A DNA stretch of 24,265 nucleotides from a virus. The position numbers and the translations under genes were made by a program. Position 1 is the first letter of the stretch. Each line of letters starts with the position of its first letter. The stretch is from positions 1 to 24,265 of the IMG/VR virus record IMGVR_UViG_3300029319_000501; one strand, given 5' to 3'. Shown here piece after piece: positions 2,163 to 15,632 of this stretch. The notes under the pieces were generated by a model, which was not told where the DNA came from, did not search any database, and saw only the letters and a list, made by a program, of their open reading frames with translations.

Positions 2163-2540
2163 ATGGCTCTGTCTTCAGCTCAGTTTGACAACACAGTTCT
2201 CACATACAAAATCATCAAGCAGACGATTACGAACGCTACCGCAAACGTAGATGTGACGTCCGAGTCTGGGAAGCTGTATGAGATTTCCTTGGTCAACAAC
2301 TCATCTTCGAACGCTTACTTCAAAGCGACACTCGATGATGATGCCGTGACGCCTGGGACTACTATTCCCGAGCTGATGATCCGTGTGAATGCTGCAGAAT
2401 CAAAACGCTGGCACATCCCTGCTGGGTTGTCATTCACCAAACTCAGCTTTTGGGCCGTGACCAATCCAACGGACAGCGACACAACCTCTCCAACTCTAAA
2501 CAGTGGTAACGGTCTGGTTACTACGTTGGTCACCTCATAG
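2163..2540 (+). CDS. Paralogous virion-like protein, type A (pair 1)
   Basis: This 125-residue protein is the first of three type A paralogs in the window; the others start at 3372 and 14885. They share the start MALS/MALT, a Y-K-I or Y-E-I strand near residue 17, a central LYEISLVNNSSSNAYFK-like strand-turn-strand, a P-E-L/D-I-M segment, and IPAGLSFTKLSFW near residues 85-95. No membrane segment or enzyme motif is visible. A type B partner follows nine bases later behind GGAGCTC. Beta-rich composition, size and neighbourhood suggest a virion decoration or fibre-tip protein. Family membership is seen in the sequence; the function is inferred. Confidence 0.65.
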   Translation: MALSSAQFDNTVLTYKIIKQTITNATANVDVTSESGKLYEISLVNNSSSNAYFKATLDDDAVTPGTTIPELMIRVNAAESKRWHIPAGLSFTKLSFWAVTNPTDSDTTSPTLNSGNGLVTTLVTS

Positions 2541-2549
2541 GGAGCTCAC

Positions 2550-2933
2550 ATGGCAGTAACTACTGGAACAGTACCGGCAGCTCTCGCTGACACATTAGTG
2601 ACCGACAGTGCTGTCGATGACGCAAATCCCGTACAGGCTAATTCTGGGTCAACCACTTGGTTCTACCTCATGGGTGACGGTTCAAGTGGAGTCATTACGA
2701 CAAGCACCTCATACATCAAGGTGTATGACGGTACATCGGGGGCGCCAGATAGCAACAATCCAGACTACGTGTTCCCGGTGCCTGCCGGTGAAAAAATAGA
2801 GTATGTCTGCTCCGAAGGAAACGCTTTAGCTGGCGGCCTGCGTTACTTTGGAACATCTACAAAAGCAAACGGCTCTACTCAAGCGCCCACCGAAGCAGCA
2901 AACGCATTGGTAGCCAAATTCCTTTTCATCTAG
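2550..2933 (+). CDS. Paralogous virion-like protein, type B (pair 1)
   Basis: This 127-residue protein is the first of three type B paralogs; the others start at 3728 and 15264. Shared features are an N-terminus of MAVTT/MASVTT, a Y-I/L-K-V/I strand (SYIKVYDG), a P-D-Y-x-F-x-V-P-A motif (NPDYVFPVPAG here), and a late Gly-rich strand (LAGGLRYFGT) before a hydrophobic C-terminal strand ending KFLFI. The ribosome site GGAG lies in the GGAGCTC shared with several other starts. It follows its type A partner directly, and that A-B order recurs at each locus. A role at the virion surface is inferred. Confidence 0.65.
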   Translation: MAVTTGTVPAALADTLVTDSAVDDANPVQANSGSTTWFYLMGDGSSGVITTSTSYIKVYDGTSGAPDSNNPDYVFPVPAGEKIEYVCSEGNALAGGLRYFGTSTKANGSTQAPTEAANALVAKFLFI

Positions 2934-2941
2934 GAGAGATC

Positions 2942-3151
2942 ATGGAAACCCTCAAAAACAAGCTCTCGTCCCGTAAGTTCTGGGCAGCGTTCCTCGGAGC
3001 TCTGCTTCCCCCAGTGCTTGCCTTCGTCAGCGAAGACATCGGTTTGGGCGAAGCACTCAAGCTTTCTGCCGGCGTGTGCGTATCGTACATTCTGGGTCAA
3101 GGTTACGTAGATGCAGCTGAGAAGAAGGCTGTGGCTGCAAGCGCAGAATAA
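2942..3151 (+). CDS. Holin-like small membrane protein
   Basis: This 69-residue protein has a short basic N-terminus (METLKNKLSSRKFW), then a hydrophobic stretch around residues 15-30 (AAFLGALLPPVLAFV) and a second weaker one around 38-54. That gives one or two transmembrane helices and a charged tail. An N-terminal SRKFW followed by a membrane helix is common in small phage proteins annotated as holins. The location upstream of a probable endolysin fits a lysis role, but holins are diverse and cannot be proven by sequence. A GGAGA site precedes the ATG. Other short membrane proteins in this module compete for the same role. Confidence 0.5.
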   Translation: METLKNKLSSRKFWAAFLGALLPPVLAFVSEDIGLGEALKLSAGVCVSYILGQGYVDAAEKKAVAASAE

Positions 3152-3161
3152 GGAGCTCATC

Positions 3162-3368
3162 ATGTTTGGTATGACTGAAGATATGTCTGAAGAAGACGCA
3201 AAAAGGTTGGATGAAATCAACGCTGGAGAGGGCAAAAAGCTTTCTGCTGCCCAAAAGGCCATTATGTTGAAGTTTGGTAGGCCAAAGGTAACCCCTAAGC
3301 CTCGAGAAAATCCAGTTAAGCCAATCGATGTAGATAAGTCATCTGTAAAAGTGAAGGGCATGGAATAG
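3162..3368 (+). CDS. Small charged hypothetical protein, 68 aa
   Basis: The open frame extends upstream to 3111, but the ATG at 3162 is preferred because AAGGAGCTC sits six bases before it and the upstream part overlaps the previous gene out of frame. The N-terminal half is acidic (MTEDMSEEDAKRLDE). The C-terminal half is Lys/Pro-rich (KFGRPKVTPKPREN), followed by a Val/Lys-rich end. There is no membrane segment, cysteine pair or known domain. It sits between the holin-like gene and the second A-B pair. Function is unknown; a small scaffold or adaptor is possible but unsupported. Confidence 0.5.
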   Translation: MFGMTEDMSEEDAKRLDEINAGEGKKLSAAQKAIMLKFGRPKVTPKPRENPVKPIDVDKSSVKVKGME

Positions 3369-3371
3369 TAG

Positions 3372-3728
3372 ATGGCACTGTCCAAGACCAAGTTTGAAGA
3401 CGCATTCAAGTACGAGATCGTTCAAGAGACCGCGTGCGACGAGACTGCAATTGTCAACACAACCTCTGGTCCTGGCTCCATCTACGCTATCCACTTCGTC
3501 AACAGCAACAACGCAGCGTCGCTGAAGTTGTTTGACGCAGAGTCTGTGACCATGTCTACCACGGTGGCAGACATGGTCTTCAAAATCCCTGCTACCTCGA
3601 CGACGATGATTGAGATTCCGGATGGACTTCCATACACGTACTTGAGCTTCGCTGTGACTGCGAACTCTAATCCCCAAGACAACACCGCTCCTGCAGCTGG
3701 TGTCAGTGTCAGGTTCTTGGTGGGCTGA
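3372..3728 (+). CDS. Paralogous virion-like protein, type A (pair 2)
   Basis: This 118-residue protein is the second type A paralog. It matches the copy at 2163 in the MALS start, the F-x-Y-E-I strand, the SIYAIHFVNSNNAASLK strand-turn-strand, the M-V-F-K-I-P segment, and the IPDGLPYTYLSF block that aligns with IPAGLSFTKLSFW. It starts three bases after the preceding stop and ends overlapping its type B partner by one base (TGATG at 3726-3730), so translation of A and B is probably coupled. Function is inferred as a virion appendage component. The divergence from pair 1 indicates an old duplication. Confidence 0.65.
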   Translation: MALSKTKFEDAFKYEIVQETACDETAIVNTTSGPGSIYAIHFVNSNNAASLKLFDAESVTMSTTVADMVFKIPATSTTMIEIPDGLPYTYLSFAVTANSNPQDNTAPAAGVSVRFLVG

Positions 3729-4126
3729 TGGCTTCCGTAACGACATCTGCATTGACTGAGCTCGGTGGCAAGTACGTTCTCAACCGAGATGCAAAGGGTC
3801 ATGACAATGACATTGCAGATCAGAAAAACGCACTCACGGGCAGCGGGACAATCTACTTGATTGAGGTCGACAATGAGGCCAACTCGTCGACGGTGTACCT
3901 AAAGATTCGCGACAACACCGACTTTCAACCATCGGTGTCTACCGCGAACGGAGCTGGTACACCGGACTACAGCTTCATTGTTCCGGCGTTCACTAAGATG
4001 TGCTACTCGTTTCCCGCAGGATTAGCTTTGTCGACTGGATTGTCGTACTGGGTGACCACAGGTGCTGCAGCTGGAACATCGGCAAATGCATCGTCTGCAG
4101 TCATCGTCAAAATACTTTGTGCATAG
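3728..4126 (+). CDS. Paralogous virion-like protein, type B (pair 2)
   Basis: This 132-residue protein is the second type B paralog. Shared features are the MASVTT start, TIYLIEVDNEANSSTVYLKI in the middle, the P-D-Y-S-F-I-V-P-A motif, a C-Y-S-F-P-A-G-L-A-L-S-T-G segment, and a C-terminal hydrophobic strand ending VKILCA. The type A copy at 14885 also ends in L-C-A. The gene starts within the stop of its type A partner. The PAG segment also resembles the type A IPAG block, so A and B may share one fold. Function is inferred as for the other copies. Confidence 0.65.
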   Translation: MASVTTSALTELGGKYVLNRDAKGHDNDIADQKNALTGSGTIYLIEVDNEANSSTVYLKIRDNTDFQPSVSTANGAGTPDYSFIVPAFTKMCYSFPAGLALSTGLSYWVTTGAAAGTSANASSAVIVKILCA

Positions 4127-4145
4127 CGAGTGAGGAATGTTGAAC

Positions 4146-4532
4146 ATGGAACCCGTCACACTGACCGTTATTGCTGTTGTAGCGTCTCTGAGCGTCGGTT
4201 TCGGTGCTGGGTGGGGTCTAAAGCCTGATGCGGGTGCAAAGGCGATTGAGGCGCAAACAGAAGCGATTGCTGAGCTCAACAGTGGTAATCAAGAGCTGGT
4301 GGCAAAAGTACAGGCAGTTGCAGTTGAGGAAGCTCAACGCGAAACCGCGATTGCAAATAAGTTGACCGACGTCCCTCCACCATGCATCAGCGAGCTGGGT
4401 GGTGATCCGATGTCTCTGCAATGCATGTGGGCGCTGTGTATTCGAACAGGTGAAACAGATAAGCAACGATGCGAGCCGTCTAAGTTGACCGACCAACTAC
4501 TCGGGTCTTATAGTTGTCCTGAGACTCAGTAG
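4146..4532 (+). CDS. Membrane-anchored coiled-coil protein, candidate inner-membrane spanin
   Basis: Residues 1-25 form a hydrophobic N-terminal helix (VTLTVIAVVASLSVGFGAGWGL). An Ala/Glu/Gln-rich helix follows (AIEAQTEAIAELNSGNQEL to about residue 75), and the C-terminal part has five cysteines. A short N-in anchor with a periplasmic coiled coil is the arrangement of Rz-type inner-membrane spanins, and the gene lies in the lysis module. No outer-membrane lipoprotein partner was found, so the role stays tentative. An ATG nine bases earlier (4137) is in frame, but the AGGA ribosome site at 4133-4136 fits the ATG at 4146 better. Confidence 0.45.
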   Translation: MEPVTLTVIAVVASLSVGFGAGWGLKPDAGAKAIEAQTEAIAELNSGNQELVAKVQAVAVEEAQRETAIANKLTDVPPPCISELGGDPMSLQCMWALCIRTGETDKQRCEPSKLTDQLLGSYSCPETQ

Positions 4533-4547
4533 GCCAAAGGAGCTCCC

Positions 4548-4856
4548 ATGGATATGAAAGATTTGGCGGTTCCGGGCATTACAATAGTGTTTGCTGCTGG
4601 CATCTCATTTGCTTCTCTTGAGTCATCAGCTCAAGATGTAGAAGAGCTCGATAAGCGCGTGACCGTTCTTGAAAGCAAGAAGGCAACGAGCATGACGCAC
4701 CAAGAGGTGGTCGATGTCAAGATTGAAGGTGTTGAGAAGCGTCTGGACAAGATGGAAGACATTGTTTCTAAGATGCTTGAGAACCAACAGCACCAAGCCG
4801 TCAATATCGCTCAAATCTGCCAAGCCACAAACGCAAATTGCAGCAGCGGTAACTGA
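4548..4856 (+). CDS. Single-pass membrane/coiled-coil protein in lysis module
   Basis: This 102-residue protein has an N-terminal hydrophobic segment around residues 6-24 (LAVPGITIVFAAGISFASL). It could be a membrane anchor or a signal peptide, since SSAQDVEE resembles a cleavage region. A heptad-patterned helix follows (LDKRVTVLESKK, then VDVKIEGVEKRLDKMEDIVSKML). Two cysteines lie near the C-terminus (AQICQATNANCSSGN). AAGGAGCTC precedes the start. The next gene begins one base after this stop. The topology suits a spanin-like or holin-accessory protein acting at the envelope with the endolysin; no specific family is recognised. Confidence 0.45.
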   Translation: MDMKDLAVPGITIVFAAGISFASLESSAQDVEELDKRVTVLESKKATSMTHQEVVDVKIEGVEKRLDKMEDIVSKMLENQQHQAVNIAQICQATNANCSSGN

Positions 4857-4857
4857 T

Positions 4858-5445
4858 ATGCGTCCTGAGATTCTCGATTACGCTGAGTCGCTTGGATACA
4901 AAGTGTTTGAGTCTGGGGCCTACAACGTCAACATCATTGGCGTGCGGTCCACAGACCACAAGGCCAACAGCTTCGACGATGTCATCCACTGCATCTTCAA
5001 GGACGAGGACGGTGAGTGGGTACACAAGTCATGGGCTTGCACGACGGAGCCCGGTAACTACTGGCTTGAGAACCCCACCAACGTGAATGGAACGGCTATT
5101 CTCGTCCCTGGTCAGTACCGAGGCGTGTGGAAGATCGACAAGCACCAAGGGAAGTATGACGCGCTCTGCCAGAGGAACGGTAAGGTCAAGACTTATCGTG
5201 ACAGCAATAAAGACGACATCATTGATTGTGATGTGGAGTCTATTACTGAAGGCTACTACGGCATCAACATTCACAAGGCCGGCGCGCACTCGACGCAAGT
5301 AGACCGATGGTCAGCTGGGTGCCAAGTCTTTGCGAACGCAGATGACTTCGCTGAGTTCATGGACATCTGCTACAAGGCTCGAGACAAGTGGGGCAACTCA
5401 TTCAGCTACACCTTGGTGCCTGAAGAAGCCAAACGAGTGGTCTGA
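4858..5445 (+). CDS. Putative endolysin with L,D-transpeptidase-like SxGCQ motif
   Basis: The open frame reaches back to 4714, but the ATG at 4858, one base after the upstream stop, is the plausible start and gives 195 residues. The C-terminal half has YGINIHKAG, twelve residues, then WSAGCQVF. An H-x(n)-S-x-G-C signature is the catalytic His/Cys motif of YkuD-type L,D-transpeptidase folds. Related phage proteins occur where endolysins are expected. The N-terminal half includes the hydrophilic pattern VRSTDHKANSFDD and no signal peptide, so export would need a holin. It lies among holin/spanin-like genes and overlaps the next gene by one base. Peptidoglycan cleavage is inferred, not shown. 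Confidence 0.6.
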   Translation: MRPEILDYAESLGYKVFESGAYNVNIIGVRSTDHKANSFDDVIHCIFKDEDGEWVHKSWACTTEPGNYWLENPTNVNGTAILVPGQYRGVWKIDKHQGKYDALCQRNGKVKTYRDSNKDDIIDCDVESITEGYYGINIHKAGAHSTQVDRWSAGCQVFANADDFAEFMDICYKARDKWGNSFSYTLVPEEAKRVV

Positions 5446-5753
5446 TGGAGTCTCTCGTTGACTCCTTGTTGGCCGATGGCCATCTAGGTATCTTTGCTGC
5501 GTTTCTGGTGTTCCAGTTCATCACGATGCAGAAGCGATTGGACAAGCTCGTAGAGGGCTTTCAAGAGCAGATTGACGAGATTCGAAAAGACTATGATCTC
5601 AGAACTGAAAAGATGAGAGACAGATATGACCGAGTGATTCAAGAATATCGGGACAATGCCGACAGTCAGTCCAAAGACTTCTTGATTGCTCGGACCAAAG
5701 TACACAACGACATTGTGTCTAAGCTCGATCGGATTCTTGACCGCGACAAGTAA
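5445..5753 (+). CDS. Holin-like membrane/coiled-coil protein (BhlA-like topology)
   Basis: The 102-residue protein starts in the TGATG overlap with the endolysin stop. One N-terminal hydrophobic helix (residues 12-27, HLGIFAAFLVFQFITM) is followed by a long, highly charged coiled coil (KRLDKLVEGFQEQIDEIRKDY onward). A single N-terminal helix with a charged tail is the topology of BhlA/UviB-type holin-like proteins, and translational coupling to the endolysin supports a lysis role. Whether this or the protein at 2942 is the true holin cannot be decided here. Confidence 0.5.
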   Translation: MESLVDSLLADGHLGIFAAFLVFQFITMQKRLDKLVEGFQEQIDEIRKDYDLRTEKMRDRYDRVIQEYRDNADSQSKDFLIARTKVHNDIVSKLDRILDRDK

Positions 5754-5764
5754 GGAATACAGCC

Positions 5765-6253
5765 ATGCCATCACCAACAGAAACGCCCGAACCCGTCGAC
5801 ATCGCCAACCTCGACATAGGCCCTGAGCCTCCAGAGCTCTCAGAAACGCTCGGTGTAGCTTCCGACATCACAGCTGCCGCTGATGCAGCTCAAGCGATTG
5901 GTGGTGAGCATGCACCCGTGGTGGCTGTGGCGCTTGCTGGGATGGCCGTGGCGGGTGGCTCCAAGGCGTTCAAGCTTTACCGAGACTGGGCCGAGCAGAA
6001 GCACGAGCGGGAGATGAAGAAGCTCGAGATTGAGTCCCAGAATCAGGGTCTTGAGGGTCAGCAGCCTCCCCCATGTGCAGCCAAGTGTGCCGCCATGCAG
6101 GCAGAGATTGAAGGGCTCAAGGCCAAGCTGGCAGGCATCGAGAAAAAGACATCCAGCATCTCTGCCGACTTCGATGGTGATGACGTTGATCGTCAGATGA
6201 AGCGCATGAAGAAACGTGTCGACGAACTGTTCGAGATAGTTGAGCAGACCTAG
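5765..6253 (+). CDS. Hypothetical protein with central membrane segment and coiled coil
   Basis: This 162-residue protein has an acidic, Pro-rich N-terminus (residues 1-30), then an Ala/Val-rich hydrophobic stretch (about 45-65, HAPVVAVALAGMAVAGG). A basic/acidic helix (EQKHEREMKKLEIES) follows, then a Pro/Cys patch (PPPCAAKCAAM) and a C-terminal coiled coil. It is the last gene of the rightward late block. Its TAG at 6251-6253 overlaps the stop of the opposing gene in the tetramer CTAG. No family is recognised. It could be a lysis accessory or virion-internal protein. Confidence 0.5.
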   Translation: MPSPTETPEPVDIANLDIGPEPPELSETLGVASDITAAADAAQAIGGEHAPVVAVALAGMAVAGGSKAFKLYRDWAEQKHEREMKKLEIESQNQGLEGQQPPPCAAKCAAMQAEIEGLKAKLAGIEKKTSSISADFDGDDVDRQMKRMKKRVDELFEIVEQT

Positions 6254-6543
6254 ATCAGCCCACTCAGTAGCGTCAGGATTGAAACGACCAATGCCGAACA
6301 AGAAAAGAACAGAGCTCGTCTACTGGCACGCCAACTGCGCTGAACATCATGTCGCTTCACTTCGAAGTCGAAGTGCTGCTCAGGCGTCCAATCAGGAATC
6401 TTCTGAGTGTACTCAGGACATTTCCGATGCTCCCACAGAGCGTCTTCAGGCAGCTGGAGACCCCGGAACATTAAACAGACGCCTGCCTGTTTGCTAGCGC
6501 CTTCGTAGGACTTGAAGAATCCGCATCGTCCACATCGGGCCAT
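6250..6543 (-). CDS. Small zinc-ribbon-like protein with C-terminal membrane helix
   Basis: Read leftward from ATG at 6543 this gives 97 residues. The frame is open to a TTG at 6579, but that codon lies inside a hairpin arm and adds residues without character. Cysteines at 4 and 7 (CGRC), 23 and 43 could bind zinc. Residues from about 76 are hydrophobic (ALFFSCSALVVSILTLLSGLI), so the C-terminus is probably membrane-inserted, tail-anchor style. No strong ribosome site is visible, which lowers confidence. The stop shares CTAG with the opposing late gene. Function unknown. Confidence 0.5.
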   Translation of the reverse strand: MARCGRCGFFKSYEGASKQAGVCLMFRGLQLPEDALWEHRKCPEYTQKIPDWTPEQHFDFEVKRHDVQRSWRASRRALFFSCSALVVSILTLLSGLI

Positions 6544-6555
6544 GGGCAAAGAATA

Positions 6556-6585
6556 CCCCACTTGAGTCGTGACTCTCAAGTGGGG
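6556..6585. terminator. Perfect 11-bp hairpin, possible terminator
   Basis: CCCCACTTGAG (6556-6566) is exactly complementary to CTCAAGTGGGG (6575-6585) across an 8-base loop. It lies between the leftward DUF2589 gene and the small zinc-ribbon gene, near the point where rightward and leftward transcription meet. No long T-run follows on either strand, so it is not a textbook intrinsic terminator. It could also be an mRNA-stabilising or regulatory structure. Confidence 0.45.
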
Positions 6586-6591
6586 CCAGGT

Positions 6592-6632
6592 TTAATCCAC
6601 GGGATTAATTAGTTACATCAGCCTATCTGATG
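6592..6632. repeat. Two consecutive short hairpins
   Basis: TTAATCC (6592-6598) pairs with GGATTAA (6602-6608) across a 3-base loop. CATCAG (6616-6621) pairs with CTGATG (6627-6632) across a 5-base loop. With the 6556-6585 hairpin and a weaker TTAAC/GTTAA pair at 6665-6679, they form a cluster in the only spacer between the late block and the recombination operon. A role in termination, replication or packaging is possible; none is proven. Confidence 0.4.
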
Positions 6633-6688
6633 AAACCAAATCTTTACCACCACCCTTGTGCAGATTAACCCTGAGTTAAAGTGCCTAA

Positions 6689-6757
6689 CCCCCCCACCCG
6701 GTGGGAATCGCCCATGCTCACGCCCCGAGATGGGAACAGACGATATGGGTGGGGGGG
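6689..6757. repeat. C7AC3 / G3TG7 inverted repeat
   Basis: CCCCCCCACCC at 6689-6699 is the exact reverse complement of GGGTGGGGGGG at 6747-6757, with 47 bases between. A smaller nested hairpin (CCCAC 6693-6697, GTGGG 6701-6705) competes with it. The right arm, with GGGGG at 6761-6765, has four G-runs capable of a G-quadruplex on the plus strand. It abuts the stop of the leftward DUF2589 gene at 6769. Function unknown. Confidence 0.5.
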
Positions 6758-6768
6758 CCAGGGGGACG

Positions 6769-7377
6769 TTACTTGCCAGCTGGAGCTGCAGCCACACCCT
6801 GAGTAGGAGCGATGGCGTCGTTCAGCATATCGAGAACCTTCATGAGGCCTTCTGGTGGCCCGTCATCACGGGCGACAACCTTGACGTCATACTTGGCACT
6901 GTTGTCACTGCTGCGGCTGTTCTCGCTGTGGTTAGCCACAGAGCCATGCACAGTGACCTCGCAAGAGAACAGACCAGCGTTGTACTTGGCCTTGGCTGTA
7001 AGGTCAGCCTTGCTGTCGGAAGTGGTCTTGCTCGAGGTGGAGGACTTGACCTCCATGGTGAACCGGACCTCGGCTTCCTTTACTGAGAGAGATGGCGTGT
7101 TGATGATGGCGAGCAGGGGTACTTGGAGGTCCACCTTCTCCATCTTCGTGTTGCCAGCAGCATCTTGGACTGGCTTGTTGAAGCCGAAGTCGACGGTGCG
7201 AGCTGACAGGTTGCCCTTGCCATCGTCGTTCAGACCGACGTCCTTGATGAAGTCGCTGGATGCCTTAGCGAGCAGGGTCTGAGCGTTACACGCAGCCTTG
7301 AGTGGACCACCAATGAGTTGCTCCATTGGAAGGCCACCGAACTGCGATGACATTTGTACGAGGCCGGAATCTGCCAT
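6769..7377 (-). CDS. DUF2589-family protein
   Basis: The 202-residue product shows the family pattern: an N-terminal MEQLIGGPLKAACNAQTLLAKASSDFIKDV helix-rich segment (residues 18-47), a basic-acidic linker, then VDLQVPLLAIINTPSLSVKEAEVRF and a conserved F-x-M-E-V-K strand followed by a Ser/Lys-rich stretch. The C-terminus carries DDGPPEGLMKVLDMLNDAI. DUF2589 proteins are known from bacterial genomes and have no established function. The start has a strong AGGAGCTC site. The gene follows a second, probably related protein by nine bases and is the last of the leftward recombination operon. Its presence in a phage operon is the notable point. Confidence 0.75.
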   Translation of the reverse strand: MADSGLVQMSSQFGGLPMEQLIGGPLKAACNAQTLLAKASSDFIKDVGLNDDGKGNLSARTVDFGFNKPVQDAAGNTKMEKVDLQVPLLAIINTPSLSVKEAEVRFTMEVKSSTSSKTTSDSKADLTAKAKYNAGLFSCEVTVHGSVANHSENSRSSDNSAKYDVKVVARDDGPPEGLMKVLDMLNDAIAPTQGVAAAPAGK

Positions 7378-7386
7378 GATGAGCTC

Positions 7387-7881
7387 CTACGGAAGCAGTT
7401 TGATTAGTTGGTCGTCGATTCTTGCATAACCTTCGGGTGGTTCGCTGCCCTTGAAAACCAGCTTGAGTTTAGCAGCATTGCTTTCCTTTTTGAACCACGA
7501 TGGCTTGGTGGCGCAGGGTCGCACCATCAGCTGACCTTTTTTCTTGTCCGCAGTGAGACCAGAGATCTCCACTGACATCTCAACCTCGAGCGTATCCACC
7601 CGTAGGCTCTGACCAGTCGTGAGGGACTGGAGCGGGACCGGAACTCTCTTGTGTACCAGTACTCCATTTTCCCATGTTGGGAGCTCCATGACGACCATGC
7701 GAGGTGCATATATGTGTCTTCCGTCGTCATCGGTAATCGGCTCTCCATTCTCATCAACCTTGAGCTCCCAGAACTCCTGGTTCGTAATCGAATCCAGTTC
7801 ATGACGTTCCGCGATGTCGGTCGCCGCTATAACAGCGGACTGAATGGAGTGGACGATGTCGTCGAGAGAATGATCAGCCAT
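7387..7881 (-). CDS. DUF2589-like partner protein
   Basis: ATG at 7881 gives 164 residues; an in-frame ATG at 7899 would add six. The N-terminus (HSLDDIVHSIQSAVIAATDIAE) and the central block VPVPLQSLTTGQSLRVDTLEVEMSVEI mirror the family layout of the neighbour: a VPLL/VPLQ segment, a five-to-ten-residue turn, then an E-x-x-F/M-x-V-E strand. Both proteins also share a C-terminal PPEG segment (GSEPPEGYARIDDQL here). The start overlaps the FmdB-like stop by eight bases, so expression is probably coupled. The relation to DUF2589 is my reading of the pattern and could be tested by profile search. Molecular function unknown. Confidence 0.6.
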   Translation of the reverse strand: MADHSLDDIVHSIQSAVIAATDIAERHELDSITNQEFWELKVDENGEPITDDDGRHIYAPRMVVMELPTWENGVLVHKRVPVPLQSLTTGQSLRVDTLEVEMSVEISGLTADKKKGQLMVRPCATKPSWFKKESNAAKLKLVFKGSEPPEGYARIDDQLIKLLP

Positions 7882-8059
7882 CGGTCGAACCGTATCCATC
7901 CTTGGCCCAGCCGCCGCCCTTCAGGACGAAGCTGGTCAGTGCGATTTGCTTCTTCATGTCCTTAGAGCACTTTTCGCAGCTGGGCTTAGGATCACCAAAT
8001 GCTTGGAGGACTTCGACTCTGACATCACAGTCCTCGCATTTGAATACGTAGAGTGGCAT
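7874..8059 (-). CDS. FmdB-type zinc-ribbon protein
   Basis: The 61-residue protein begins MPLYVFKCEDC and has CxxC pairs at residues 8/11 and 28/31, then TSFVLKGGGW. This is the full pattern of the FmdB/CxxC-CxxC-SSSS regulatory-protein family: MPxYxYxC..C, VLQ, PxCxxC, then SFxLKGxGW. Family members are small zinc ribbons of unclear function, named after a regulatory protein of amide metabolism. The start overlaps the preceding stop by one base (TGATG), and the end overlaps the DUF2589-like start. It is probably a small nucleic-acid- or protein-binding adaptor; the exact role is unknown. Confidence 0.8.
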   Translation of the reverse strand: MPLYVFKCEDCDVRVEVLQAFGDPKPSCEKCSKDMKKQIALTSFVLKGGGWAKDGYGSTDG

Positions 8060-8721
8060 CAGCCTTCGAAGTCAGTGGGAATCTCCAGCTCTTCAGCCGG
8101 TTCCTGAGTCTTGGCTTCGCTGGCTCCAGACTCCTTCTGAATCATCAGTGCAGCGAGCTGCTTCAGTAGAGCCTTCATTTCGGGGTCGCCACCATTGGAT
8201 GCTGCGTTCTGAGCCTGGATTGCCTCGATGAGCTCCTTGTTGGAACCACTGACGTCGACCTTCACATCAACCAGAGGAACGCCATTCTGGTACTGCAGAT
8301 CACGCTCGTTCTTGGCGTCAACAAACTTGACCGCAAGCATGATTGCATCGTCACCTTGGATGTTCGGTCGTATTGCAGCCTCGTAATCCATGACGCACCA
8401 TTCACCGTTCGGCTGGACAAGCTTGATGTGCTTCTCCATGCTCTCAATCGTCTTACCGATTTGCTCACGGTACAGTGGCTCATCGACGTAGTTCAGCATG
8501 CCCTTGAGAGTCCACTCGGTCTTCTTGAGCTTGCTCCGGTACTGGGCAAACTCCTTCTTGGACTTCTTGTCAATGACGCGGTTCGTCATTTCGTCTTGAA
8601 GAATGTCCATCAGGCGCTGTGGCTGGATGATGAACTTGCGTTCGACTTCCTTGCCGGCCTTCTCAGACATCATGAGCTTGTATGGCGATAGGTTGCTTGC
8701 GGCTTCGTCGAGTAGCGACAT
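8059..8721 (-). CDS. Hypothetical protein downstream of recT, 220 aa
   Basis: The protein is soluble and charged. A Lys/Glu-rich helical N-terminal two-thirds includes MSEKAGKEVERKFIIQPQRLMDIL, and the region CVMDYEAAIRPNIQGDDAIMLAVKFVDAK follows. The C-terminal tail is acidic (EELEIPTDFEG). No catalytic motif or domain is recognised. It sits nine bases after the recT stop and is coupled by TGATG to the FmdB-like gene, so it belongs to the recombination operon. A recombination accessory or ssDNA-handling role is possible but unsupported. Confidence 0.6.
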   Translation of the reverse strand: MSLLDEAASNLSPYKLMMSEKAGKEVERKFIIQPQRLMDILQDEMTNRVIDKKSKKEFAQYRSKLKKTEWTLKGMLNYVDEPLYREQIGKTIESMEKHIKLVQPNGEWCVMDYEAAIRPNIQGDDAIMLAVKFVDAKNERDLQYQNGVPLVDVKVDVSGSNKELIEAIQAQNAASNGGDPEMKALLKQLAALMIQKESGASEAKTQEPAEELEIPTDFEG

Positions 8722-8730
8722 GGGTGCTCC

Positions 8731-9615: not shown

Positions 9616-10568
9616 GTTGCCTCTTTTACTCGCAAGATGCGATTACCTGGTTTCTCGACGACGAACTCGTCGTAAAGCTTGGGGTGTTTTTCACGGAAGG
9701 AGTCCTTGTCGAACACCTTTCTCGGCTTGCTCTGCTTCCAAGTGGCTACACCCGCAATACCACTATCATCACCGATTTTTGCCCTCAGCAGATTTTCCAT
9801 CTCGCGCCTCTCGACATCGAGATGTTTAATCTGCTTTTTGACCGCAACGAGTTTTTCGTGCAGGTCTTTCTCGGCCACCGTGGCGACTCGAGGCGGTTCA
9901 TCTTTGACCCTCGGGTTCATCGACGTCAGGACCGCTTTACATGCGTCAGTTGCATCCACATCGGGCGGCACTTCGGCTTCTACATGTTTGCTCCACCACG
10001 CTTCAGCGACGTCCAGAATCGCCTCGCCGAGCTGCTTGTCTCGCTCAAGCCTATACACTCTGAAGTCATCGAGACTGAACAGGGTTGCGATGTCCCAGTA
10101 TGGAGCGTCGAAGATCTCCATGTAGACACGCATCTGAATCTCTACATCGAGTGGTACATCGGTCGTGTGTGAATCTCCCCAGCCGTACCGGAATCGACGT
10201 GTCTTTGCATCCATACCGAACCGCACACCGTCCTTCTCGACCAAGCGATCAGGTGTACCGAAAATGCGTGGCCGAGTGGGATGCCATGTCAGTCCCTCTT
10301 CCCAGAGCTTGCAACCTTCCCCAAGATGGAGCTCGTAAAATTCACAGACATACTTTTCCATCACTCGGCCACGCAATAAAATCGCGTTGTCAATGTCGTC
10401 AGTCGAATACAGACCCGTCTTTTCGGACCAAAGCTTGAACAAGCTATTTTCGAATGAGCCAACCTTTTCTGACTCGTCAGCTCCCGCCATCATGATGGCG
10501 GCGATGTCCGTCCCACCGAGGCCTTTGCGGCGCTCGGCTAACCACGCTTCTCGTTCTTCTTGATCCAT
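9612..10568 (-). CDS. YqaJ-type (lambda Exo-like) viral exonuclease
   Basis: ATG at 10568 gives 318 residues and has GAGG at the right distance; the frame is open further upstream without a ribosome site. The N-terminal RRKGLGGTDIAAIM (about 13-26) is the start of the YqaJ/Exo fold. Probable active-site residues are E71 (RGRVMEKY), D107 (FGTPDRLV), D120 and K122 (FGMDAKTRR), and Q145 (EIQMRVYM). The C-terminal part is a coiled coil and a Lys-rich end (residues 232-290). Enzymes of this family resect duplex ends 5' to 3' and load RecT on the exposed strand. The four-base overlap with recT supports a two-component annealing system. Confidence 0.88.
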   Translation of the reverse strand: MDQEEREAWLAERRKGLGGTDIAAIMMAGADESEKVGSFENSLFKLWSEKTGLYSTDDIDNAILLRGRVMEKYVCEFYELHLGEGCKLWEEGLTWHPTRPRIFGTPDRLVEKDGVRFGMDAKTRRFRYGWGDSHTTDVPLDVEIQMRVYMEIFDAPYWDIATLFSLDDFRVYRLERDKQLGEAILDVAEAWWSKHVEAEVPPDVDATDACKAVLTSMNPRVKDEPPRVATVAEKDLHEKLVAVKKQIKHLDVERREMENLLRAKIGDDSGIAGVATWKQSKPRKVFDKDSFREKHPKLYDEFVVEKPGNRILRVKEAT

Positions 10569-10587
10569 ATGTTCCTCTCTTTTGGTG

Positions 10588-10616
10588 AGAGTACTGAGTA
10601 TCACAATGTGTGTCAA
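10588..10616 (-). promoter_or_regulatory. Putative promoter of the exonuclease-recT operon
   Basis: On the minus strand, TTGACA (10611-10616) is followed by 17 bases and TACTCT (10588-10593). The start codon lies about 20 bases further on. The -35 is a perfect sigma-70 match; the -10 is poor against TATAAT, but the same TACTCT hexamer recurs at the same spacing in the divergent promoter and near 22818. Confidence 0.5.
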
Positions 10617-10633
10617 CCGGCCACACCCACATG

Positions 10634-10662
10634 TAGACAAAACACAACGATTCCGATACTCT
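10634..10662 (+). promoter_or_regulatory. Putative promoter of the HTH/H1-like gene pair
   Basis: On the plus strand, TAGACA (10634-10639), 17 bases, then TACTCT (10657-10662), 20 bases before the regulator start. Its -35 is 17 bases from the -35 of the opposing exonuclease promoter, so the two are back to back and could be co-regulated. Confidence 0.45.
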
Positions 10663-10682
10663 GCTTTTCAAAGGTGTGTCGC

Positions 10683-10922
10683 ATGGTCATATCCGAGTAC
10701 AGAAAAAGTTTGCCGGGTCGCAGTACTCGCGTGAGTTTCGTTACGTGGCTCAACGGTGAGCTGATTCATTTCGATATGAAGATCAGTATCGGGTACCTGA
10801 GGGATCTCGAGTATGGGCGCAAAACACCATCTCTGCCTCTCGCGATCGGAATTGAACGAGCGACTGGCGGTATCGTCTCAGTAAGAGAATGGCCGGGGTT
10901 GTCCCCTCGGCTACGTTTATGA
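10683..10922 (+). CDS. Small helix-turn-helix, Cro/YdaS-like regulator
   Basis: ATG at 10683 has AAGGTG upstream and gives 79 residues; the frame is open further 5' over the promoters and is not coding there. Residues 33-62 (KISIGYLRDLEYGRKTPSLPLAIGIERATGG) have the pattern of a Cro/YdaS-type helix-turn-helix: recognition-helix-like SIGYLRDLEYGRKTPS, then LAIGIERATGGIV and a Trp. It stands between divergent promoters, upstream of the H1-like gene, so autoregulation and control of the exonuclease operon are plausible. The next start lies 12 bases after this stop. Confidence 0.6.
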   Translation: MVISEYRKSLPGRSTRVSFVTWLNGELIHFDMKISIGYLRDLEYGRKTPSLPLAIGIERATGGIVSVREWPGLSPRLRL

Positions 10923-10933
10923 TTGGAGCAAAC

Positions 10934-11269
10934 ATGAGTTTGAAAGACAAAGTACAAGCGATCCGCCAGGCCCGTAAGCCCGGTCGTTTCATCATCCCTG
11001 GCTACGACAGCAACGACGTCTTGAACACGTTGTTCAACTACGTAGATGAACTCGAGTCTGGTGCGTCAGAGGTGGAGTCTTTGCGTGTCAAGGTCGGCAT
11101 CCTTGAGGCCAAGATCGAAGCTGGACCGGACAAGAAGTTCGGCACTAAGGATGACAAGGTGACGCTGACTAAGGCAAAGAAAGCGCCTGCCAAGCGCAAG
11201 CCTGCAGCGAAGAAGGCGCCAGCGAAGAAGAAGGCGCCAGCGAAGAAGAAGCCAGCTGCAAAGAAGTAG
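10934..11269 (+). CDS. Basic DNA-binding protein with histone-H1-like Lys/Ala/Pro tail
   Basis: ATG at 10934 is preferred over earlier in-frame starts because TTGGAG lies five bases upstream; this gives 111 residues. Residues 1-75 are mixed, with a helical heptad region (LFNYVDELESGASEVESLRVKVGILEAKI). The C-terminal 35 residues are almost entirely Lys, Ala and Pro in repeats of KAPAKKK and KKPAAKK. Such tails occur in bacterial H1-like/HU-tail proteins and bind DNA non-specifically. A nucleoid-like or DNA-condensing role is inferred. The stop is three bases from the stop of the opposing gene. Confidence 0.6.
   Translation: MSLKDKVQAIRQARKPGRFIIPGYDSNDVLNTLFNYVDELESGASEVESLRVKVGILEAKIEAGPDKKFGTKDDKVTLTKAKKAPAKRKPAAKKAPAKKKAPAKKKPAAKK
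11213..11248 (+). repeat. Two perfect 18-bp tandem repeats in the H1-like tail
   Basis: AAGGCGCCAGCGAAGAAG occurs at 11213-11230 and again at 11231-11248 with no change. The unit encodes the Lys-Ala-Pro repeat of the basic tail in frame, so slippage would lengthen or shorten the tail by six residues without frameshift. Confidence 0.85.
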
Positions 11270-11272
11270 CGG

Positions 11273-11503
11273 CTACATCTCAGTTTCGTCAGACGTCGAC
11301 AGTAGTAGCTGCAAGGCTACTTCTGTCTGCGCCTTTTTGATGTGGTCTTCAACGACATCCTCGACGTGACTGTGCAAGATTGAGCTCACGACACACTCTC
11401 CATCCTCGTCAATCACTTGGATGGAGGTGTCGTCTGTCTCGACGTGCCAAGGCTGTGGCTGCTGCCACTGGTCTCGAATGCTTTTGAGTTCTGACTTCAT
11501 CAT
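11273..11503 (-). CDS. Small hypothetical protein, 76 aa
   Basis: The acidic 76-residue product contains WQQPQPWHVETDDTSIQVIDEDGECVVSS, suggesting a small beta domain, followed by a helical C-terminus (VEDVVEDHIKKAQTEVALQLLLS). Two adjacent ATG codons (11503 and 11500) are both possible; both overlap the upstream stop. No known domain or membrane segment is seen. It is the last gene of the leftward primase/ATPase block and ends three bases from the convergent H1-like gene. Function unknown. Confidence 0.5.
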   Translation of the reverse strand: MMKSELKSIRDQWQQPQPWHVETDDTSIQVIDEDGECVVSSILHSHVEDVVEDHIKKAQTEVALQLLLSTSDETEM

Positions 11504-12093
11504 ACAAGTAGTTTACGCGAACCGATTCCTCTGTGTGGAATAACGACCCGCTCTGACCAGTCGTTGATGAGCTCAATCATCGCCGTGTTGGCAGAGTCGT
11601 TGCAGTGCATCCCGAACGACTTCTCCTTCAACACACACGTCGGCCACATCAAATCAACGACACGGTACAGTTGTCTGCGTATTGAATCAGTCATCAGCAT
11701 GGCTTTGTAAGGCGTGATGTGAATCCATGCGTACAGTTTGTCGAGCTGGGATTCATCAAACGTATGTCCGTCGTCGATCAGATCAGCCAAAATGTCTTGC
11801 ACCTTGTGCCTCATAATCATGGCGTCTTCACAGTGTTCCCAATCCACCGTGAAGCCACGATTGATGAAGTAATCAATACCGAACCCCAACACAGATGAGT
11901 AGGAGCCAGTTTCAATAAACTGCTTCACTCTGTTGGCCTCAGCGACCATTTGGAAGTCTATGCTTCCAGGATACGCTTTGACCTTCGAGTTCCCTTTTTG
12001 GCGCTTTATAAGGTCTTTGTCTTCCTCAGTGAGGTATCGGTCTATCTTTCGGTTTGTCATCTCTGCTGCTAATCGGCTCATCTCAGTTCTCAT
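11500..12093 (-). CDS. Hypothetical protein in the replication block, 197 aa
   Basis: The protein has a charged N-terminus (MTNRKIDRYLTEEDKDLIKRQKGNSKVK). A largely helical body follows (EANRVKQFIETGSYSSVLGFGIDYFINRGF, HKVQDILADLIDDGHTFDESQLDKLYAWIHITP), with a C-terminal segment ending HRGIGSRKLLV. Cysteines are scattered rather than paired. No recognised domain. The start at 12093 overlaps the VapE stop by 11 bases; ATG at 12081, one base after that stop, is an equal candidate and neither has a good ribosome site. It may serve replication, by position only. Confidence 0.55.
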   Translation of the reverse strand: MRTEMSRLAAEMTNRKIDRYLTEEDKDLIKRQKGNSKVKAYPGSIDFQMVAEANRVKQFIETGSYSSVLGFGIDYFINRGFTVDWEHCEDAMIMRHKVQDILADLIDDGHTFDESQLDKLYAWIHITPYKAMLMTDSIRRQLYRVVDLMWPTCVLKEKSFGMHCNDSANTAMIELINDWSERVVIPHRGIGSRKLLV

Positions 12094-13423
12094 TGGTGTT
12101 TTGATTGTCTACGACAACTTCGGGTTTGTTCATCGGAACGACATTCTCAGGCTCTGCTTGGACCCACACGTACTTACGATCGCCGTATACTCTGCGCCTG
12201 ACTCTCTCGTACCCGAGCTGACGCATGATGTCGCCGACGCGCATCTCTGATGCCCTGCTCATCTGGTATCGATCCAGTTTGAGTGCGTTCTCCATTAAGT
12301 CGGTCGTCGATAAGTTGGCACCGTTGGCTCGTATGTATCGTTCGATGACTTCTTGCCATGGGTCAAACTGGCGGAACTCTGCTGACTGCTCGTTGAGCTC
12401 GGCTTGCGAGTCATTCTCAAGATACCAACGCTCACCGTTTTTGTAGGCCACCACCGCTTCTGCCCACAGCTGAGCACGGTTCTTGGTAGTCCACTCGGGA
12501 TCGATAGTACCCACCTGAATCGGCCAGTATCGACGTGAACCAGTTTCATCGGTGATGAACTCGGCCTTGTTGGTTGTCCCACAGAATACCGTGTGTCTCT
12601 TCCACGTCACTGCGTTGTGACCGTAAGGAGGACGGAACGTGTCCTCTTGAGCTGACAGGAATGCCTTGGTACTGGAGTTACGAGCCCGTCTAATAGAGTC
12701 CAGCTCGGCAACCTCGTAAATCCACGCACGGTGAATCTGCATGTAGGCATTCGTCGAGCCGATGTCCATGGGCGTGTCACAGAAGTACTCAGGAGACGCG
12801 AGGATGCGGAATGTCGTGCTCTTGCGTGCGCCTTGGGGTCCAACAAGGATGAGAACGCAGTCGGCCTTGCAGCCGGGTTCCATGGCTCGTGCGATGCACT
12901 GCACAAGCCACCTTCGTCCAATTTCTCGAGTCAGCTTGGTATCTTGAGCTCCACACGCACGAACGAGCCACTCATCCATGCGAGATACACCGTCCCAGGT
13001 AGTTTCACCAAGCCAATCAATCAGCGGGTTCTTGCCGTTGACCTCGGCGATGTAGTTGACCGACTCAATGATTGATTGAGTCGTGAACTTCGCATTGTAG
13101 TGCTCCTTCATCCAAATCTTGATGCGGGTGTAGTCCGTGTCCTTCAGTGGTCGGTCTTGGTAGTAGTTGGTGTTGCTGAACTCATTGAGCCACACCTTTT
13201 TCTTCCACCGCTTGTCGCGATCAAGAATCGTTAAAAGATTCGAGACCGTCGGAGCTACTTTCTGAGTGCCATCTTTGTTGGTCTGCATCTCGAGTAGGTT
13301 CAGTACACGACCATCGACGCCGTCTTGACCACTCTTTGAGTGTGCTTCTTCGGCCATCTTCAACAGATCAGTCAGACGTGGCGAGCCCTGTTTACCATCA
13401 ATCACCGCGTCCAAATCAAGCAT
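12083..13423 (-). CDS. VapE-family P-loop ATPase, probable replicative helicase
   Basis: ATG at 13423 is preceded by GGAGG at five bases and overlaps the primase stop by eight bases, giving 446 residues; an upstream ATG at 13519 is less likely. Residues 136-150 (DWLGETTWDGVSRMDEWL) and GPQGARKST (195-203) are the VapE/DUF signature with the P-loop. WIYEVAELDSIRRA (234-247) provides the Walker B-like acidic pair. DTFRPPYGHNAVTWKRHTVFCGTTN (261-285) and GSRRYWPIQVG (295-305) complete the family core. VapE-type proteins commonly act as phage helicase/primase-helicase ATPases. The P-loop has Arg where the usual Gly precedes Lys. The partner primase is encoded immediately upstream. Confidence 0.85.
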   Translation of the reverse strand: MLDLDAVIDGKQGSPRLTDLLKMAEEAHSKSGQDGVDGRVLNLLEMQTNKDGTQKVAPTVSNLLTILDRDKRWKKKVWLNEFSNTNYYQDRPLKDTDYTRIKIWMKEHYNAKFTTQSIIESVNYIAEVNGKNPLIDWLGETTWDGVSRMDEWLVRACGAQDTKLTREIGRRWLVQCIARAMEPGCKADCVLILVGPQGARKSTTFRILASPEYFCDTPMDIGSTNAYMQIHRAWIYEVAELDSIRRARNSSTKAFLSAQEDTFRPPYGHNAVTWKRHTVFCGTTNKAEFITDETGSRRYWPIQVGTIDPEWTTKNRAQLWAEAVVAYKNGERWYLENDSQAELNEQSAEFRQFDPWQEVIERYIRANGANLSTTDLMENALKLDRYQMSRASEMRVGDIMRQLGYERVRRRVYGDRKYVWVQAEPENVVPMNKPEVVVDNQNTNEN

Positions 13424-14432
13424 CCGTGCCTCCAACAAGATTTTCAAGAGGGATCCTGTAAGAGGTCCGGTCACCGAGTTGCAATTGAATCGTCTTGGCG
13501 TACTCCCGACCCTGCTCATCTGGGTCAGTCCCTATATAAATCTTTAGGCTTTTGGGAATCTTTAGTTTCGAAATAGAACTGAATGATCCTGACGTACCGC
13601 CGAGAACCGCTAAATTAATGTCTAGATCCTCAACCTCTGCAGAACACTTGAGGAAATCCGTCAGGCCCTCGACGAACAACACTCCGTCTAAATCGACCGC
13701 TAGACCCTTCATCATCTTGACTGCGTAGCGATTGGGCATGAAGAGGCCTTTGGCTTCGAAACCTTTAGGCCACAGCGTCTTTGGTGCAGGGTCGCACGGT
13801 TTGATTGCTCGACCATGAAGGCTCACGAAGTTGCCGAGCTCATCGAAGGCGGGGACCACGAGCCTCCACATGGCTGTTCTGCCAGCAGGCCACCAACCTG
13901 GCCATTGATACTTGCTGCGCTCAGGAGTGACCCTGACTACTCCCGACTTGGCTAAGGCCTTCATGTTCAGGTTTCTGCTCTGCAAAAATGAAACACACTC
14001 ATCGTTCGGTGGCAGCTGATGCAACTGCAGAGACGACGCCCAGAGGCTCTTGATTTGATGATGTGGTGGGCGCTCACCCCTCAGCTTCGGTGGCTCACTG
14101 GTGATGTTTGCGCCATCGCTGATCTCACCTTCGAACCAAACTCGGACTTTGGTTTTCATGTCAGGCGTCAGCTCAGCAAACTTTGACCCACCGAGGCAAT
14201 ACGAGACCAGATCAATCCCTGAACCTTTGGCGCCACAGCGATGACACTGCCAGCCTTTGTTGTCCGTTCGTATGCCAATAGTGCCTCGCTTGTCTTTCGA
14301 GCCACGCTCGACAGCAGCACAGTTCGGGCAAGGTCCAATCGAGTTGGACTTCATGAGTTTTAGGTTGAGTCGTCTAGCTACTTCTACTACTGCAATACGC
14401 TCAGCGTCGTGTATCCACACGGCAAGCTCCAT
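13416..14432 (-). CDS. DNA primase, zinc-binding plus Toprim
   Basis: The 338-residue protein has CPNC (Cys35/38) and CHRC (Cys63/66), a zinc-binding module as in phage primases. The catalytic core includes WRLVVPAFDELGNFVSLHGR (189-208). The Toprim motifs are VEGLTDFLK (254-262, Glu255) and IGTDPDEQG (300-308, Asp303 and Asp305), with GGTSGSF between. It lacks a helicase domain, which the next gene supplies, so the T7 gp4-type functions appear split in two. The start has no clear Shine-Dalgarno, and a short gap of 31 bases separates it from the HTH gene upstream. It would synthesise RNA primers for lagging-strand replication. Confidence 0.85.
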   Translation of the reverse strand: MELAVWIHDAERIAVVEVARRLNLKLMKSNSIGPCPNCAAVERGSKDKRGTIGIRTDNKGWQCHRCGAKGSGIDLVSYCLGGSKFAELTPDMKTKVRVWFEGEISDGANITSEPPKLRGERPPHHQIKSLWASSLQLHQLPPNDECVSFLQSRNLNMKALAKSGVVRVTPERSKYQWPGWWPAGRTAMWRLVVPAFDELGNFVSLHGRAIKPCDPAPKTLWPKGFEAKGLFMPNRYAVKMMKGLAVDLDGVLFVEGLTDFLKCSAEVEDLDINLAVLGGTSGSFSSISKLKIPKSLKIYIGTDPDEQGREYAKTIQLQLGDRTSYRIPLENLVGGTDA

Positions 14433-14463
14433 CTATCTAGGGGGAAGGTTGATTAGAACACAA

Positions 14464-14745
14464 TCAGGTGCGTTCGATTTTCCACTTGAGCTTGCCGTCG
14501 CATTCGATCAACAAGGTCATCTTTACACCGGCTCTTTGGTACGCCTCCGATGCGTACCTAGCCAGAAGATTGACTGAGATCGAGTTGCGTTCGCCCTTGA
14601 GCGCATGCCACAAGTGAGTGTGGGATACGCCGAGAATGCGTCCGACTTCACGATATGAGTCGCCCAGCTCATTGAACAATGCTTGCAGAGCAGGCTTAGT
14701 ATCAATTTTGAATTTGGATTCTACTTCCTGTTGTTTGACTGACAT
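14464..14745 (-). CDS. Small helix-turn-helix transcription regulator
   Basis: ATG at 14745 has GGAG seven bases upstream and gives 93 residues; the frame extends upstream across the promoter region and is not credible there. Residues 30-62 (SYREVGRILGVSHTHLWHALKGERNSISVNL) match an XRE-type helix-turn-helix, with the second helix GVSHTHLWHALKG. The C-terminus (VKMTLLIECDGKLKWKIE) is strand-like. The gene is divergent from the third A-B pair and upstream of the primase block. A palindrome between the two promoters suggests autoregulation and control of both directions. Confidence 0.7.
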   Translation of the reverse strand: MSVKQQEVESKFKIDTKPALQALFNELGDSYREVGRILGVSHTHLWHALKGERNSISVNLLARYASEAYQRAGVKMTLLIECDGKLKWKIERT

Positions 14746-14769
14746 GTGGTGTCTCCTATTGGTGTAGCA

Positions 14770-14798
14770 ACAATAGTGAACGGTCTTGGTTCTGTCAA
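14770..14798 (-). promoter_or_regulatory. Putative promoter of the HTH/primase block
   Basis: On the minus strand, TTGACA (14793-14798), 17 bases, then TATTGT (14770-14775), 25 bases before the regulator start. The -35 is a perfect sigma-70 hexamer and the -10 matches four of six positions. It would drive the HTH gene and possibly the primase and VapE genes downstream. Confidence 0.55.
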
Positions 14799-14804
14799 AG
14801 ACAC

Positions 14805-14820
14805 TCACTACATTTAGTGA
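14805..14820. promoter_or_regulatory. Operator-like palindrome between divergent promoters
   Basis: TCACTA (14805-14810) and TAGTGA (14815-14820) are an exact inverted repeat around CATT. The site lies between the -35 boxes of the leftward and rightward promoters. The half-site TCACTACA recurs upstream of the helicase gene near 19818-19825. It is a candidate binding site for the adjacent HTH regulator. Confidence 0.45.
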
Positions 14821-14830
14821 TTGTCCGTGT

Positions 14831-14859
14831 TTGTTCAACGGACTAAGGTTTGGTAGAAT
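14831..14859 (+). promoter_or_regulatory. Putative promoter of the third A-B pair
   Basis: On the plus strand, TTGTTC (14831-14836), 17 bases, then TAGAAT (14854-14859), 25 bases before the type A start. The -10 matches five of six positions while the -35 is weak, so activation or another sigma factor is possible. It explains how two isolated rightward genes could be expressed inside the leftward block. Confidence 0.45.
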
Positions 14860-14884
14860 ACGATGTCTTCGCTGGGAGTATCTG

Positions 14885-15256
14885 ATGGCACTGACGGTAA
14901 CTGGGTTCTCGAACAACTCTTTGAGCTACAAGATCGCCTCTGAGTCAGACGCAAGTGACTCGCTGAGCTCCGACATTTTTGGTGGTGGTGGAACGCTCTA
15001 CGCGATTGATTTTGATAACCAGTCCGGTAACTCCGCCTTCTTGAAACTGTATTTGCGATCAGGGACCGTCACTGCTGGTGGAAACTCTGGTTCCGAGCCC
15101 GACATAATGTTCAAGCTCGCAGCAAACAAAGCAACTACAATTCAACTCCCAGCAGGTCTTGCGTTTACTCAACTGTCTTTTTGGGTGACAGACGCTGCAG
15201 CAACAAGCGACACGGGCGATCCTGGCACCGTAGTCCTCACCTTCCTTTGCGCTTGA
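14885..15256 (+). CDS. Paralogous virion-like protein, type A (pair 3)
   Basis: ATG at 14885 follows GGGAG by six bases and gives 123 residues; upstream in-frame ATG codons lie over the promoter region. It is the third type A paralog: MALT start, LSYKI near residue 13, LYAIDFDNQSGNSAFLK in the middle, PDIMFKL, then LPAGLAFTQLSFWV, which aligns with IPAGLSFTKLSFW of the copy at 2163. It is more similar in this block to the 2163 copy than to the 3372 copy. It is isolated from the structural block by more than 10 kb, beside its own regulator. Function is inferred as virion-associated or a host-facing variant. Confidence 0.65.
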   Translation: MALTVTGFSNNSLSYKIASESDASDSLSSDIFGGGGTLYAIDFDNQSGNSAFLKLYLRSGTVTAGGNSGSEPDIMFKLAANKATTIQLPAGLAFTQLSFWVTDAAATSDTGDPGTVVLTFLCA

Positions 15257-15263
15257 GGTAAGC

Positions 15264-15632
15264 ATGGCCGTAACTACTACGACTGCATCCAACCCATTGG
15301 TGACCACTATTGTGGTCGATGCCGACGCAGACTTGACTGTTGAGGCTGTTGCCTCTGGCAATAAGACTGTCTATGCGGTTGAAATCACCAACCCAAACAC
15401 AGCAGATGCGGTGTACTTGCACATCAAGGAAGACACCTCAGCGACACAGACATCTCAGCATGACCATCAGCTCTACTGCCCAGCAAACACAACTTGCTAC
15501 TACTACTTCCCTACGGGTATCGAAACTTCGTCAGGTATCATGATGTATGCCTCGACAACCCCTGGTGGTGGCGCGAGTGCGGTAGCGCCCGAGCAAGCGG
15601 TCACAGTCACGTTCGGATTCACAGCTCGATAG
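15264..15632 (+). CDS. Paralogous virion-like protein, type B (pair 3)
   Basis: This 122-residue protein is the third type B paralog: MAVTTTT start (compare MAVTTGT at 2550), TVYAVEITNPNTADAVYLHI strand-turn-strand, a C-P-A-N-T-T-C-Y-Y-Y-F-P-T-G segment equivalent to the P-A-F-T-K-M-C-Y-S-F-P-A-G of the 3728 copy, and a strand-like end (VTVTFGF). It begins seven bases after its type A partner, again in A-B order. The TAG stop abuts the stop of the opposing gene in the palindrome TAGCTA. No membrane helix or enzyme motif. Confidence 0.65.
   Translation: MAVTTTTASNPLVTTIVVDADADLTVEAVASGNKTVYAVEITNPNTADAVYLHIKEDTSATQTSQHDHQLYCPANTTCYYYFPTGIETSSGIMMYASTTPGGGASAVAPEQAVTVTFGFTAR

Follow-up and report, generated by a model that had tools for sequence, protein, structure and literature searches.

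We find that a family of small phage proteins, absent from Pfam, PHROGs and the Protein Data Bank (PDB) as searched and recurrent in environmental phage contigs, is encoded as strictly paired genes, here called A and B. Three such pairs (cassettes) lie in a stretch of 24,265 nucleotides (nt) covering the IMG/VR record IMGVR_UViG_3300029319_000501 (hereafter the window); this virus belongs to the tailed phages and has podovirus-like genes. The A–B unit probably encodes a small virion protein with a beta-sandwich (jelly-roll-like) fold and two homologous subunits; this protein is most likely a decoration or appendage of the capsid surface that exists in up to three isoforms. Capsid decoration is the best, if unproven, of the options raised in an earlier note on this DNA, which had proposed rapidly duplicating paired appendage proteins suited to variable receptor binding or capsid decoration. 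The three cassettes consist of the following genes.

2163–2540, plus strand: A1, type A predicted beta-sandwich protein, cassette class 1 (125 aa)
2550–2933, plus strand: B1, type B predicted beta-sandwich protein, cassette class 1 (127 aa; Shine–Dalgarno (SD)-like GGGAG upstream)
3372–3728, plus strand: A2, type A, cassette class 2 (118 aa; AlphaFold pLDDT 86)
3728–4126, plus strand: B2, type B, cassette class 2 (132 aa; AlphaFold pLDDT 91)
14885–15256, plus strand: A3, type A, cassette class 3 (123 aa)
15264–15632, plus strand: B3, type B, cassette class 3 (122 aa)

The open reading frames (ORFs) confirm what the earlier note had described: six genes in A-then-B order three times over, at these coordinates and with gaps of 9, −1 and 7 nt in cassettes 1, 2 and 3, respectively. 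In cassette 2 the start codon of B2 overlaps the stop codon of A2 (TGATG). The start of A3 was set at 14885 (MALTVTGF, common to relatives); the mechanical ORF opens at 14786. The copies had been taken for paralogues of two types, and pairwise and profile alignments of the six proteins reveal similarity within A, within B and also between A and B. A1, A2 and A3 share 34–36% identity (blastp E 1e-16 to 1e-20; shuffle z-scores 21–27), and the three B copies match one another at blastp E 1e-7 to 1e-14 (z-scores 8–18). Between the types, seven of the nine comparisons gave z-scores of 5.3–15.5 and the other two were weak (2.4 and 3.3); A3 matched B2 by blastp at E 6e-13, and hhalign aligned the A family with the B family at a probability of 99.7 (E 4e-27), a result that rules out unrelated folds. 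Because A and B are homologous, they form one family with two subfamilies and not two unrelated types. Other small structural ORFs, namely P0007 (910–1272) and upstream ORFs of 125, 143, 146 and 201 aa, were rejected as kin of A and B (hhalign probability below 3% each).

We scanned IMG/VR for relatives using A3, A1 and B2 as well as alignments of A and of class 2 B. All loci fetched, from environmental viral contigs, together hold 57 distinct adjacent pairs (window included). In every one A precedes B, the gap ranging from −1 to 11 nt; this includes all 18 held-out pairs, from loci outside the building of the A and B profiles. Whole records carry 2, 4 or 6 copies, the exceptions being G025/L036, with one weak match, and phage Rctr197k, with a single gene. 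In the relatives G001, G008 and G009, three cassettes are spaced as in the window, with two close together and the third about 11 kb off. Distance matrices of A and B are correlated (r = 0.88; none of 2,000 permutations as high). This correlation, the unbroken gene order in other phage genomes and the recurrence of the cassette classes in both halves of the trees described below bear out the earlier suggestion that the pair acts as a unit. Given the adjacent genes and the stop/start overlap in cassette 2, A and B would be made together in fixed proportion, and they most likely assemble with each other, presumably through direct contact in a hetero-oligomer. One seemingly lone B, in L063, was discarded as such since an A gene is there, but disrupted: at 684–958 of that locus a class 2 A lies in two out-of-frame pieces with about 30 residues missing, next to an intact B, owing to either an assembly error or a broken gene.

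Scanning genome contigs of bacteria and archaea returned one relative, in a Kiritimatiellae MAG contig, and gene 171 of Virus Rctr197k (KX853510) was the sole match in 50,697 phage records. Annotated as a hypothetical protein, gene 171 is 32% identical to A3 across 99% of its own length but stands alone in a partial genome of 197 kb, on the other strand from the genes around it. Viral contig scans with the single genes of Rctr197k and L060 gave no further relatives. Across 47 members we obtained no convincing family match in Pfam or PHROGs, the best PHROGs match being to phrog_7531 (E 9e-5), a family of unknown function that two of these members matched; a PDB sequence search yielded no clear relative, and a literature search found no description of the family.

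Two trees of 92 and 70 sequences, which use only about 120 columns and do not settle where the root lies relative to A, B and the single-gene homologues, recover the A sequences as a single clade (support 100/99 in the more careful tree) and place the B sequences together on one side of a branch (94/86). Each half contains all three classes, with parallel topology. The parallel classes and the correlated A and B distances indicate that the whole unit, not a single gene, was duplicated before the group diversified. At about 26–37% identity to one another, the three classes are, judging from sequence, ancient paralogues at fixed genome positions. The rapid duplication put forward earlier is thus not borne out, as the classes are old and syntenic; recent or rapid duplication is ruled out by the trees and by comparison with near relatives. 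We infer that a single gene came first: a single-gene ancestor would have undergone tandem duplication to give A and B, and further duplication of the whole A–B unit would then have produced three classes, each with its set location in this phage group.

The principal clue to function comes from the single-gene homologues. A scan with one of them (L087) gave 26 loci, the query's own contig among them, and each of the 22 whole records searched holds one copy. For 13 loci the fetched stretch includes a major capsid gene of the Gp23 type (PF07068; E 6e-72 in L103), and in 12 of these the homologue starts 95–118 nt downstream of it; one gene intervenes in L107. About 11 of these loci are independent, because two locus pairs are near-identical. 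Where covered, a head–tail adaptor gene (phrog_211) and, further on, a tail sheath gene (phrog_23) follow the homologue. In L100, L104, L109 and L111 the homologue does not adjoin a capsid gene within the fetched stretch. These genes of T4-like viral contigs (for example L103, 3306–3671; L091, L092, L107) resemble A and B in full-length homology (profile E 1e-22 to 1e-38), length and consensus motifs, but differ in occurring as one gene per record with no A/B split, in the capsid module of phages with contractile-tail sheath genes. Annotated gp23-type relatives (immuto, Mel-JY01 and RM378) have no detectable homologue near the capsid gene. In L115–L118 the post-capsid slot is filled by other accessory genes, such as an 89-aa ‘tail fiber protein’ (immuto) and a 241-aa ORF (Mel-JY01), which suggests that the position is an exchangeable accessory one. 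Genes directly after the capsid gene in such phages often encode head accessory proteins. The adjacency of single-gene homologues to a gp23-type major capsid gene lends sequence-level support to the virion-like nature proposed in the earlier note, and it is mainly because this kin directly follows the capsid gene that we prefer a virion role, specifically at the head surface; A and B themselves would then be carried in the virion.

The AlphaFold models of A2 (pLDDT 86, pTM 0.75) and B2 (pLDDT 91, pTM 0.84) are each a single beta-sandwich of eight strands in the same order, a likeness that is not independent evidence because the two alignments share members. Both are small, compact, beta-rich domains, as are capsid decoration proteins. 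With Foldseek, no PDB structure matched either model at E < 1e-3, and the fold alone therefore names no function; weak matches were to carbohydrate-binding modules, icosahedral capsid jelly rolls, PRD1 P5, a Pam1 capsid unit, the HFTV1 turret and Ena subunits. BFVD contained 46 matches to B2 below 1e-3, the best being unnamed 120-aa proteins (TM 0.65–0.9) and others being domains within longer phage proteins, one of them named tail fiber protein. Decoration or cement proteins (cyanophage Pam1, 7eel_H) and the HFTV1 turret (8qpg) are likewise small beta-rich head proteins, and decoration proteins are encoded beside the capsid gene, as the single-gene homologues are, but they lack sequence similarity to A and B (Foldseek TM 0.25–0.46, E about 1e-2). 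The HFTV1 turret is also made of two proteins (PMC12494034); unlike A and B, its base and head proteins are not described as mutual homologues in the portion of that source considered here (PMC12494034).

The weak Ena matches raise the alternative that A and B polymerise into thin or pili-like head fibres, in principle as the paired Ena subunits do in endospore appendages of Bacillus. Both models match Ena in Foldseek (Ena1B, 7a02, probability 0.99; Ena3A, 8pdz, TM 0.41/0.46), Ena subunits are beta-sandwiches of about 113 aa, the sizes being similar (about 115–120 aa), a low-confidence N-terminal strand of the models could be an exchange arm, and paralogous ena genes act together (PMC12921279). 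The matches are, however, not significant (E > 1e-3; rmsd 7.7–9.5), Ena subunits form bacterial spore fibres and show no sequence similarity to A and B, and the PDB sequence search gave no match that would place A and B in the Ena family (DUF3992). We regard such fibres as very improbable.

Cassettes 1 and 2 are located where a podovirus-like structural module ends, with fibre-like genes on one side and lysis genes on the other, cassette 2 being inside the lysis module ahead of the Rz-like and endolysin genes.

2942–3151, plus strand: holin-like gene between cassettes 1 and 2 (phrog_9987, E 8e-5)
3162–3368, plus strand: 68-aa ORF of unknown function between the holin gene and cassette 2
4137–4532, plus strand: Rz-like spanin candidate after cassette 2 (phrog_2466, E 0.004, weak)
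4858–5445, plus strand: endolysin-like gene (phrog_3000, E 6e-37; phrog_33083 endolysin, E 2e-16)

Classes 1 and 2 would be expressed late, alongside the fibre and lysis genes. Codon-usage likeness to the capsid gene, tried as a proxy for late, high expression, was uninformative, with ranks scattered from 18 to 61 of 70. Class 1 is an optional module, because relatives without it (L028, L029, L070 and L030) keep the surrounding order: a fibre-like gene, then a holin gene or small ORF, then cassette 2. Upstream structural genes in G008 include an SU10 adaptor (PF24175), an internal virion protein (phrog_511) and a major head protein (phrog_9953), and the A–B cassettes there are about 25 kb from the capsid gene. 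Downstream of the endolysin gene the window holds a tandem paralogous DUF2589 pair (6769–7377 and 7387–7878, both minus strand; PF11655, E 4e-44 and 1e-15), which is 89–93% identical in relatives whose endolysin is 74% identical and which in G008 adjoins cassette 3 (44068–45177) and does not follow the lysis genes.

The position of cassette 1 directly after fibre-like genes is compatible with A and B being tail-fibre or spike-tip parts that bind the host surface, their copies serving as receptor-binding variants, and so are the longer phage proteins in BFVD that contain such a domain, among them the one named tail fiber protein, and the weak matches to carbohydrate-binding modules. The pattern of selection argues otherwise. 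Between the window and its nearest relative, G001, A and B genes have dN/dS of 0.03–0.14, similar to endolysin and replication genes, and A1 and B1 are 97–98% identical despite the replacement or strong divergence of the adjoining fibre-like ORFs. Of the latter (19–2144; 293, 120 and 290 aa), two have no counterpart in G001 and the third matches in part, with dN/dS of 0.29; this segment is likely, on sequence comparison, to be a host-range swap point. In G013 and G009, A1 and B1 are 84–90% identical and the endolysin 74%. A and B are therefore among the better conserved genes and are under purifying selection, and they do not show the fast or mosaic evolution of variable receptor-binding proteins. 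The variable receptor binding of the earlier note thus fails on the slow evolution of A and B, set against fibre-like neighbours that are replaced between near-identical phages. As the single-gene relatives, too, travel with the capsid gene and not with fibres, we consider a fibre or spike role unlikely.

Cassette 3 lies on the plus strand amid minus-strand replication genes (RecT, RecE, primase, helicase and single-stranded DNA-binding protein (SSB)), and the region before it contains several putative control elements.

14464–14745, minus strand: 93-aa helix-turn-helix (HTH)-regulator-like gene, divergent from cassette 3 (by eye)
14770–14798, minus strand: promoter-like site TTGACA-17-TATTGT facing the HTH-like gene (10/12)
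14806–14819, unstranded: palindrome CACTACATTTAGTG, a candidate operator with a divergent promoter on either side (eight of nine loci keep the core TACATTTAG)
14849–14860, plus strand: extended −10 promoter-like element TTTGGTAGAATA upstream of A3 (pattern TTTGrTAnnATA)

The 93-aa ORF is read as a regulator from sequence appearance only, because no family matched it. On the plus strand, the pattern TTTGrTAnnATA is kept upstream of A3 in all nine aligned loci and is unique in the window; the consensus promoter scan missed this site because its −35 hexamer is poor, and it is this conservation that marks it as promoter-like. Class 3 would thus have a regulated promoter of its own in the early region, separate from the control of the other classes.

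This location counts against our preferred reading, since normal virion genes do not sit amid leftward replication genes. Also against it are the roughly 25 kb that separate cassettes and capsid gene in this phage group and the single-gene homologues of L100, L104, L109 and L111. The placement of cassette 3 suits proteins with a non-virion role, intracellular or accessory at lysis, such as a moron-like unit of which cassette 3 would be the early-expressed version. For such a role speak the strand of cassette 3, opposite to its neighbours, its conserved −10 element and palindrome and the divergent regulator-like gene, together with the placement of cassettes 1 and 2, which flank the holin gene and precede the Rz-like and endolysin genes. 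Against it, neither A nor B has a signal sequence or membrane segment apparent by eye, the single-gene homologues sit within capsid modules, and the fold is common among virion surface proteins. We judge a non-virion role to be improbable.

A more specific form of capsid decoration is a heteromeric system in which a single capsid-accessory jelly-roll protein has been split by duplication into an obligate A/B pair with three isoforms, one of them under its own repressor-type early switch; this is a speculative proposal. Were it true, the phage could alter its particle surface by infection stage or mode. If A and B are a virion protein, a whole set of ‘hypothetical’ genes acquires a name, and the family offers a clear example from nature of a homomeric virion protein becoming a two-subunit one with copies in different expression modules. 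At higher coordinates than cassette 3, the minus-strand segment at 16454–18104 encodes a DNA methyltransferase (16517–17251), SSB and an ORF of 153 aa whose match to the Mom DNA-modification family is below the cut-off (PF25680, E 4e-5), and a tRNA-Asn lies at 16454–16526.
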